This document shows, piece by piece, positions 7,201-63,469 of a DNA stretch of 64,000 bases. The position numbers and the translations under genes are program-made. The DNA is from Alviniconcha marisindica. Its lineage: Eukaryota; Mollusca; Gastropoda; Provannidae. Location of the stretch: positions 684,501 through 748,500 of the forward strand of contig JABMCL010000813.1 in NCBI GenBank assembly GCA_018857735.1, given 5' to 3'. Every line of letters begins with the position of its first letter. Position 1 is the first letter of the stretch. The notes beneath the pieces are model-generated. The model had not been told where the DNA came from and made no database searches. It saw nothing but the letters and a program-made list of their open reading frames with translations.

Positions 7201-10200
7201 TCTTGCAAACCCTGTTCACCAGCAGTAAAAATGGTTGGCAGGAAAAGGGTTACAAAGAACTTCCGTGAAGGAACTGGCCATCTCACTAGATAGTTTGTCT
7301 GGTGATGACTGGAAGAGATCACAATGAAAGGGGAAATTAAAGTTATTACTTTAAAATGCTTTGTTGAGCTGGGGGGGGGGGGGGGGTCAGATTTTTCTGT
7401 TTTTGGTGTGATCTGGATGACCTCACACACACACACACACACACACACACACACACACACACACACACACACAAAGCTATTCATGCATGCAGAATCACAC
7501 ACGAGCACAGTGAGTCTGCTCGAGAGCGGAGAATAGCACTATATAAAAGCGATCAACAACAACAACATTTGGCACACACACCGTTCAAGGCAAAACATAA
7601 AAGCAGCAGCTATAAGCAGCAGGCAAAGTGTGACACTTGACAGTTTTCTACATCCTGTGCTGCTGAACGTCACTCATGAGTCATGAAACTCAGGTCCCCC
7701 TCTTCTTCTTCTTTCCTTTGTCCATATAGTGTCTACTTCTACACTTTGATGACTGTGACACTTTTAGTGCATGGCGAGTTCAGGTCACCTGAATGGGCGC
7801 AAGTCTCCACTGATCCTCATGTCTCACTGTGGTCAGTGCAGAGTTGATGCAGGTCACCTGAATGGGTGCAAGTCTCCACTGATCCTCATGTCTCACTGTG
7901 GTCAGTGCAGAGTTGATGCAGGTCACCTGAATGGGCGCAAGTCTCCACTGACCCATATGTCTCACTGTGGTCAGTGCAGAGTTGATGCAGGTCAGCTGAA
8001 TGGGTGCAAGTCTCCACTGACCCATATGTCTCACTGTGGTCAGTGCAGAGTTGATGCAGGTCACCTGAATGGGCACAAGTCTCCACTGATCCTCATGTCT
8101 CACTGTGGTCAGTGCAGAGTTGATGCAGGTCACCTGAATGGGTGCAAGTCTCCACCCGTCATTATATCTCATTGTATTGTGTGCAGATTTGATGCATGTG
8201 TCAACTCAATGGGCACAAGAGTCCACTAGTCTTTATATCTTGTATTCTGTGCAGATTTGATGCAGGTCAACTCAATAGGCACAACAAGACTCCGCTAGTC
8301 TTTATATCTTGTATTCTGTGCAGATTTGATGCCGGTCCACTCAATGGGCACAAGAGTCCACTAGTCTTTATATCTTGTATTCTGTGCAGATTTGATGCTG
8401 GTCAACTCAATGGGCACAAGACTCCACTAGTCTTTATATCTTGTATTCTGTGCAGATTTGATGCAGGTCAACTCAATAGGCACAACAAGACTCCTCTAGT
8501 CTTTATATCTTGTATTCTGTGCAGATTTGATGCCGGTCAACTCAATAGGCACAAGACTCCACTAGTCTTTATATCTTGTTGTGTTCTGTGCAGATTTGAT
8601 GCCGGTCCACTCAATGGGCACAAGACTCCGCTGCCAGATATCCCTGAATTACCGCCCAGTCGTCCACTGACTCCCAGTGAGCAGATGGACATCATGCTGG
8701 CCATTGAGCAGGAGGAGTTGCAGGCCACCGGAACCCCGTCAGAAAGAGATCAGGAGGTGGGGGGCCTGTGCCGGACTGTAGACCACTTCCACTATCACCA
8801 CATCAAATTCATCATTTCACCATATAATTATGTTATATACCAGGATAATGCAGTCCTTTTTACTGCCTGCTTCAAAAACAGTGAGGACAGATCTCCTTTG
8901 AATCGAACAGGCTCCGCCACCCTATTCTTCATCACTGAGCATCAGATAGACCACAAAGTGTCATCAAAATGAAGATGCATCGCATTTATGTCGTGTGTCA
9001 TTCCATTCCTGGTTTGACTTTTTTCACTCAAAGCAAAGACACCACAATACACACAGCATGCAATCTGCTATAACTTAACATAACAAAGACTGTTTTATAT
9101 TAGTCTTTTTAGTTAGCCACAGGTTGGAAGTTTAGTGCATCAAGCCCCTACTTTAGTGCATCGGATAAGCCCATTTGCACATAACGATCAGCACTGTTAC
9201 TGTATGTGTGCATTGTCATCGCTACAGCTACAAAGGAGTGCATACTCACAGAACAAAATACAGCATAAGCCTCTCTAAGATTGAGAGTGTTAGCTACAAT
9301 CCGTGCTTTTTACCTGTGCAGCGCTACTACTACTACATCCGGAAAGGAGTGCAGAAGAAGATGCTTGCACCCCAGCCGTCAGAGCAGCTCCGATCCATCC
9401 AGCGTCTGGTGCCTCATAAGTATCTTACCAGCCACTACCTCTCCAACCTGCGCGATGAGCTGCTGGAGGAGATAGACTCTGACTATGAGTTCAGCGCCAG
9501 AAAGTCCATTGGTTAGTAGATGTGCATGTGCCTTTGGCTTCTTTAATGCTGACACCGGGGCTGTGTCCACTGGCAAAAATACCTGGGCTGAGAAATGTGT
9601 GCATGTGTCTTTGGCTTGTTTAAAGCTGAAACTGGGGCCTTTTACAGTGGCAAACATTTCTGGGCTGAGTAATGTATGCATGTGCCTTTGGCTTGTTTAA
9701 AGCTGAAACTGGGGCCTATTACAGTGGCAAACATTTCTGGGCTGAGTAATGTATGCATGTGCCTATGGCTTGTTTAAAGCTGAAACTGCGTGAGATATTG
9801 TGTTTATGTCTGGATGTCCATGGATGAATGTGAACTGTGCTCCATTAGGTTCCAGAGTTAGGCTGAATGCAGCTCACATTCCATTGTTCGTTGTCTGCCG
9901 TCTTGAACTGTGGTCTGGAAGTATAACAGACAGCTGATGCATTTGGGGTGGTAATGATGTCAGACTTCTAATTCAAGTGTGGTTGAAATCAGAAATGTCA
10001 ATGCAGTAGTACACACCCAACAGAGCAGAGCTCAGGAGCTGTGTAAAAGTCAAGGTGGACGTCCTGGGCACTAATAGTCCACATGGTATCTGTAGACATA
10101 AAGCAGCATTGAACTTGAAGCTGCCTGAGTGTGAGCCGGTTTGGCCTAGCGGTAAGGCGTAAGGTTGGTAAGCGGAAGGACCTCGGTTTGATGCTGCTTC

Positions 10201-63469: not shown

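Follow-up and report, generated by a model that had tools for sequence, protein, structure and literature searches.

Do the tandem repeats that crowd the exon edges of one dynein gene lie there more often than chance would place them, and, if so, how did they arise and how is the gene spliced in their presence? The 64,000-nt window, that is, the whole stretch of DNA that was analyzed, carries the 5' part of the gene for axonemal dynein heavy chain 3 (DNAH3), which continues past the window:

1188..63470, + strand, DNAH3 exons 1–45 (spliced alignment, open frame, Batillaria match; end of exon 45 approximate)

The nearest protein match is from the sea snail Batillaria attramentaria (80% identity, 93% of the query), which makes a caenogastropod snail the probable host, and DNAH3 is the name on many of the named protein matches. 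A spliced protein-to-DNA alignment of the B. attramentaria protein, which gave exons 7–45 and part of exon 6, served as the base of the gene model. Exons 1–5 and the start of exon 6 were added manually by frame and the GT-AG rule, a spurious 7-bp exon was removed, and the donor of exon 39 was shifted to the canonical site. The end of exon 45 (63470) is the end of the alignment only, and a GTAAGT starts there. The resulting model has 45 coding exons and 44 introns, with GT-AG in 44 of 44, and a single open frame of 2339 aa without a stop; the exon numbering of the initial annotation agrees with it. Relative to the DNAH3 of the window, the six orthologous proteins considered, out of 70 found, show seven inserts of at least 5 residues. 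Two of them (35 and 37 aa, both in P0002) sit 3–8 residues ahead of exon 15, and P0002 also lacks 61 residues that correspond to exon 36. These inserts come from other species and have little bearing on the use of decoy splice sites in the window gene. A tRNA scan (ARAGORN) and an Rfam scan of the whole window yielded nothing; the region 10131–10210, which looks by eye like a tRNA-derived short element, lies within the stretch on which both were silent.

Tandem arrays were collected by two methods. With TRF (period of at least 10, score of at least 60, microsatellites excluded), 50 merged arrays were obtained, which cover 35% of the intronic and 5.4% of the coding bases. Ten of these arrays span an acceptor (exons 6, 15, 17, 26, 27, 29, 34, 39, 41, and 44), and one spans a donor (exon 44). 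A self-match lag scan, which also detects old two-copy duplications, was added; its coverage was 35% of the intron and 8.3% of the coding bases, and in the one block-shuffled control zero bases reached the threshold. In the lag scan, 12 of the 44 acceptors were located inside a tandem array or local duplication, with exons 8 and 36 added to the TRF set. At each of the 12, the repeated unit includes the splice site, and the end of the intron together with the first 8–81 bases of the exon is tandemly duplicated, from two-fold to about 12-fold:

7781..8633, + strand, acceptor of exon 6 (exon from 8594): 69-bp array, 10 decoy acceptors, 40 coding bases in the last unit
10748..11040, + strand, acceptor of exon 8 (11007): two-copy duplication, lag 230, 34 coding bases, among inverted repeats
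20511..20890, + strand, acceptor of exon 15 (20851): 65-bp array, 4 decoys, 23 (TRF) to 40 (lag scan) coding bases
22540..23350, + strand, acceptor of exon 17 (23313): 67-bp array, 11 decoys, 38 coding bases
33974..34889, + strand, acceptor of exon 26 (34846): 86–92-bp array, 8 copies (6 with AG), 44 coding bases
35672..36123, + strand, acceptor of exon 27 (36115): 66-bp array, 6 decoys, 9 coding bases
36889..37750, + strand, acceptor of exon 29 (37723): 32-bp and then 56-bp arrays, 4 decoys, 8 (TRF) or 28 (lag scan) coding bases
43268..43583, + strand, acceptor of exon 34 (43503): two-copy 154-bp duplication, 81 coding bases
48123..48224, + strand, acceptor of exon 36 (48208): old two-copy duplication, lag 76, 17 coding bases
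52914..53456, + strand, acceptor of exon 39 (53413): 84-bp array, 4 copies (3 with AG), 44 coding bases
55724..56294, + strand, acceptor of exon 41 (56275): 58-bp array, 8 copies (6 with AG), 15–20 coding bases
60987..61614, + strand, acceptor of exon 44 (61580): 125-bp and 77-bp arrays, 31–35 coding bases, 4 decoys, of which the first lies just outside the span at 60977

Upstream of the 32-bp and 56-bp arrays of exon 29, an older copy of more of this exon can be recognized by eye in intron 28 (36880–37750), which suggests that this one acceptor was duplicated in several rounds. Five further arrays in the lag scan end 1–13 bp ahead of an exon, so that 17 acceptors in total are spanned or abutted:

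27593..27743, + strand, array 6 bp short of exon 21 (27750), TRF and lag scan
33130..33300, + strand, 64-bp array 1 bp short of exon 25 (33302), TRF and lag scan
45808..47245, + strand, array 3 bp short of exon 35 (47249), TRF and lag scan
49026..50299, + strand, array 13 bp short of exon 37 (50313), lag scan
51496..52032, + strand, array 6–10 bp short of exon 38 (52042), TRF and lag scan; spanning under coarser merging, not counted as such

On the donor side, the lag scan found 2 of 45 sites spanned (exon 44, and exon 23 weakly, with a score of 17). A symmetric test over 40 bases, for which the remaining introns provided the control, gave 3 of 44 donors (exons 23, 31, and 44) and 13 of 44 acceptors, namely the 12 listed above and that of exon 25, whose unit holds no coding base. 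The spanning is clear at exon 44 only, and the copies at exons 23 and 31 are weak and old:

61734..62774, + strand, array at the donor of exon 44 (61806), 7 decoy donors downstream
30562..31372, + strand, 88-bp array family reaching weakly to the donor of exon 23 (30570)
40917..41126, + strand, old two-copy duplication at the donor of exon 31 (40954), lag 172

If abutting is defined as lying within 17 bp, duplicated stretches also begin 6–17 bp past the donors of exons 7, 21, 24, and 30. The initial annotation had reported tandem arrays at exon edges across the dynein gene, and this was confirmed: its 17 acceptor cases were reproduced by the lag scan, as were its two donor cases, presumably those of exons 23 and 44. 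Its figure of 13 units that include a splice site and coding bases is reached when the donor of exon 44 is counted with the 12 acceptor units, and the range of 8 to 70 coding bases that it gave per unit extends to 8–81 for the acceptor units. Since each of the 12 acceptors carries a unit of its own, the view of the initial annotation that a process was repeated, rather than a single event, also holds.

To what extent is this more than chance? In the unit-placement null, a founding duplication is a unit of set length that is dropped anywhere as long as all exons are left intact. It was applied to 48 families (47 merged families, minus one beyond exon 45, with two composites split by hand), the periods of which were assigned by hand. 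The expectation was 1.96 acceptors and 1.93 donors, versus 12 and 2–3 seen; the probability of at least 10 acceptors was 1e-5, and 0 of 200,000 draws reached 12. Thus, acceptors are about sixfold above this expectation, and donors are close to chance. When 25 intronic bases were required, the acceptor expectation fell to 1.28. The acceptor arrays have longer units (median 72 versus 50, p = 0.007), but for the 30 families with a period of at least 50 alone the expectation was 1.62, and 0 of 400,000 draws reached 12, so that the longer units do not account for the excess. Sliding whole arrays within introns gave 2.7 expected acceptors with an overlap of at most 45 bp (0 of 20,000 reached 12) and 4.1 with an overlap of at most 80 bp (P = 3.5e-4); altogether, the sliding nulls expected 1.7–4.1 acceptors, with P at most 3.5e-4. 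In this gene, acceptors are hit far beyond random placement (12 seen versus 2.0 expected).

The contrast between acceptors and donors requires no model of the introns. For 13 versus 3 in the symmetric test, Fisher's p was 0.011 and the binomial p 0.021; for 12 versus 3, the values were 0.021 and 0.035, and for 17 versus 7, with abutting arrays included, 0.030 and 0.064. The contrast in itself is thus moderate, with p between 0.01 and 0.06 depending on the rule used. The asymmetry of 17 to 2 in the initial annotation is real, but it is milder when counted symmetrically (13 versus 3) or like for like (17 versus 7). All these p-values are optimistic, since a single gene was studied, in a window selected for its striking appearance, and the acceptor excess was spotted in the same data.

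In all 12 arrays, the real acceptor lies in the 3'-most copy, behind up to 11 decoys. Because the real acceptor and the intact exon lie in this last copy, the number of copies does not affect the protein. AG is kept in 57 of the 62 upstream acceptor copies listed. Among the 57 copies with AG, 51 would bring a frame shift or a stop codon if used; the other 6, of which 5 belong to exon 6, would leave the reading frame open. In the array of exon 6 (8193–8756), the unit is 69 bp long and the frame is open through the last copies, so that the use of any of five decoys could lengthen the protein by in-frame repeats. The decoys are in part as good as the real sites: 8 of the 12 arrays contain a decoy that scores at least as high as the real acceptor, and at exons 26 and 34 one decoy is identical to it (40 of 40 bases). 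The intact real frame over 45 exons indicates that the gene is probably spliced correctly. If so, the acceptor must be chosen by its wider context, e.g., by the complete exon with its donor; textbook mechanisms that could do this are exon definition and nearness to the donor. The exon pieces in the decoys differ from the real exon at 50 of 582 first, 46 of 556 second, and 71 of 559 third codon positions (p = 0.02 for the contrast, with non-independent copies). Positions 1 and 2 are about equal and position 3 shows a modest excess, so the decoys look untranslated; this pattern would arise if coding constraint acted on the real copy alone. The arrays represent a set of natural splice-site competitions, and read mapping and gene annotation are likely to stumble at these acceptors.

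The reading that we favor, and that we hold to be somewhat likelier right than wrong, is that these are minisatellites of the mirage type, which combine more births of duplications at the 3' ends of introns with a filter for complete acceptors and with decoys that are ignored via exon definition. An array would start with a small tandem duplication that reached 25–73 nt into the intron on one side and ended within the exon on the other, and would grow by slippage or unequal exchange. The duplication would survive only if the last copy retained the branch region, the pyrimidine tract, and the AG. All 12 units contain at least 25 intronic bases (P = 0.008 under uniform placement, with manually assigned unit lengths and a cut of 25 that was picked post hoc); the absence of shorter ones would follow if such a unit stripped the real acceptor of its tract and was then lost. 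The decoys would mostly be ignored, as splicing would pair the acceptor that adjoins the whole exon with its donor, regardless of the local sequence. Finally, acceptors would be in excess because such duplications are born more often at the 3' end of an intron. Longer survival of the acceptor arrays was considered and rejected: their median partner identity, a rough measure that is confined to stretches in which copies can still be matched, equals that of the intronic arrays (0.953 versus 0.953, p = 0.45). This equal divergence gives no sign of longer survival and points to birth.

Several local causes of the births were rejected. If an acceptor-like motif seeded arrays, it should recur in arrays elsewhere, but the units of 29 non-acceptor arrays (a set without the five abutting arrays, in which four are neighbors or members of edge families) had a mean percentile of 0.55 relative to matched intron (p = 0.51). 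As intronic arrays lack acceptor-like motifs, the motif alone cannot explain the hotspot. Among six features tested in these 29 arrays, only purine runs differed, being shorter in the arrays (Wilcoxon p = 0.0055); for pyrimidine content versus matched intron, p was 0.076. Inverted repeats are present at exon 8, where three pairs (33–58 nt, 91–95%) surround the acceptor copy upstream of the exon (10563–10943), a pattern that might stem from a template switch; they were discarded as a general cause, since none of at least 25 nt was found at the other 11 spanned acceptors. Microhomology, which the initial annotation had proposed, may still play a part: the exact right-hand extensions of seven near-two-copy duplications were 5, 2, 5, 4, 25, 0, and 0 bp, values that are too few and too blurred by indels to speak for or against it. 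A stronger version of the birth hypothesis, in which a process linked to transcription or splicing specifically duplicates intron 3' ends, repeatedly and genome-wide in this snail lineage, is unlikely. If it were true, a unit would begin near the branch region and reach into the exon by some tens of bases, and polymerase pausing and RNA-DNA hybrids at acceptors would be possible drivers.

Other explanations dispense with a hotspot of births. That the region is simply rich in minisatellites (35% of the intronic bases), some of which lie on exon edges by chance, is rather unlikely: array coverage within 200 bp of acceptors (about 0.33–0.41) is indeed not above that at 400–600 bp into introns (0.45), but coverage is the wrong yardstick, because an intact exon lets only the last unit of an array cover the acceptor. 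The unit-placement and sliding nulls expect 1.7–4.1 acceptors, versus 12 seen, and the donors, which serve as an internal control, are near expectation. Selection could also create the asymmetry, if duplications arose evenly and harmful decoy donors were purged, with decoy acceptors being harmless. U1 recognizes donors with little help. The 12–13 acceptors versus 3 donors and the drop of base coverage beside donors to 0.06 fit this idea, which nevertheless appears quite improbable, as donors are not under their neutral expectation (1.93 expected, 2–3 seen) and the excess lies in the acceptors.

Selection for redundant splice sites, as proposed in the initial annotation, in which extra copies are kept because they raise splicing efficiency, is very improbable and found little in its favor here. 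Within units, variation is slightly lower at the AG (7 of 136 cells) than elsewhere (377 of 3845 cells, p = 0.08), but a comparison by columns gave p = 0.33; the intronic columns −16 to −30 seem more variable partly because the copies were selected on the part from −15 into the exon. Rescue of weak acceptors by copies was also rejected, since acceptors with arrays are not weaker than the others (3.00 versus 3.22, p = 0.88). Moreover, five arrays end before the AG, and acceptor arrays are not more diverged. Tandem arrays are difficult to assemble, and the single N in the window (45196) lies inside an intronic array; nevertheless, an assembly or polishing artefact that multiplied repeats near exons is extremely improbable, given that in most arrays the copies differ mutually at many sites and that the frame is intact over 45 exons.

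Arrays with the structure of those favored here have already been described in amphioxus, in a literature in which Canestro 2002 is reportedly cited, so that the statement of the initial annotation that no named system does this was wrong. Minisatellites over intron-exon boundaries are termed "mirages" in the amphioxus Adh3 and globin genes (PMC3087553); in the globin genes, one spans a 3' intron end and one a 3' exon boundary. The units measure 10–72 bp in Adh3 and 150–160 bp in the globin genes, and many copies retain AG or GT. For further lancelet mirages, a piggyBac paper names troponin C and adds PGBD5 (PMC3902484). In both papers, the authors see no interference with regular splicing (PMC3087553, PMC3902484). 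The window shares with these cases the tandem units over intron-exon boundaries (12 of 44 acceptors, one clear and two weak donors) and the retention of splice signals (AG in 57 of 62 copies, GT in 7 of the 7 donor copies listed at exon 44). By structure, the arrays of the window are mirages, known here from the DNA of one haplotype. The host there is a lancelet, whereas the gene studied here is mollusc-like; the globin arrays described concern one boundary in each of two genes, in contrast to 12 of 44 acceptors in one gene; and both boundaries can be duplicated there (PMC3087553), whereas an acceptor bias was measured here.

Two other systems are related. In human duplicated genes, internal tandem repeats occur at exon-intron boundaries (PMC2812944); these, too, are variable repeats over splice boundaries, but they can give rise to introns that are new or to alternative transcripts, of which there was no sign here, judged from DNA alone. 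Intron gain by tandem genomic duplication (the Rogers model) likewise starts with a small duplication that carries splice signals; in the DNA of the one species analyzed, however, an existing intron grows and no new intron was seen. In a partial coverage of the mollusc literature, no boundary-spanning arrays were found in the accessible parts of PMC3862624 and PMC4732748, nor are they described in those of PMC8724738, PMC2206037, and PMC4039745. The taxon, the density, and the measured acceptor bias are possibly new. An amphioxus curiosity is extended to another phylum, at a higher density and with a measurable acceptor bias, and this bias deserves a genome-wide test.
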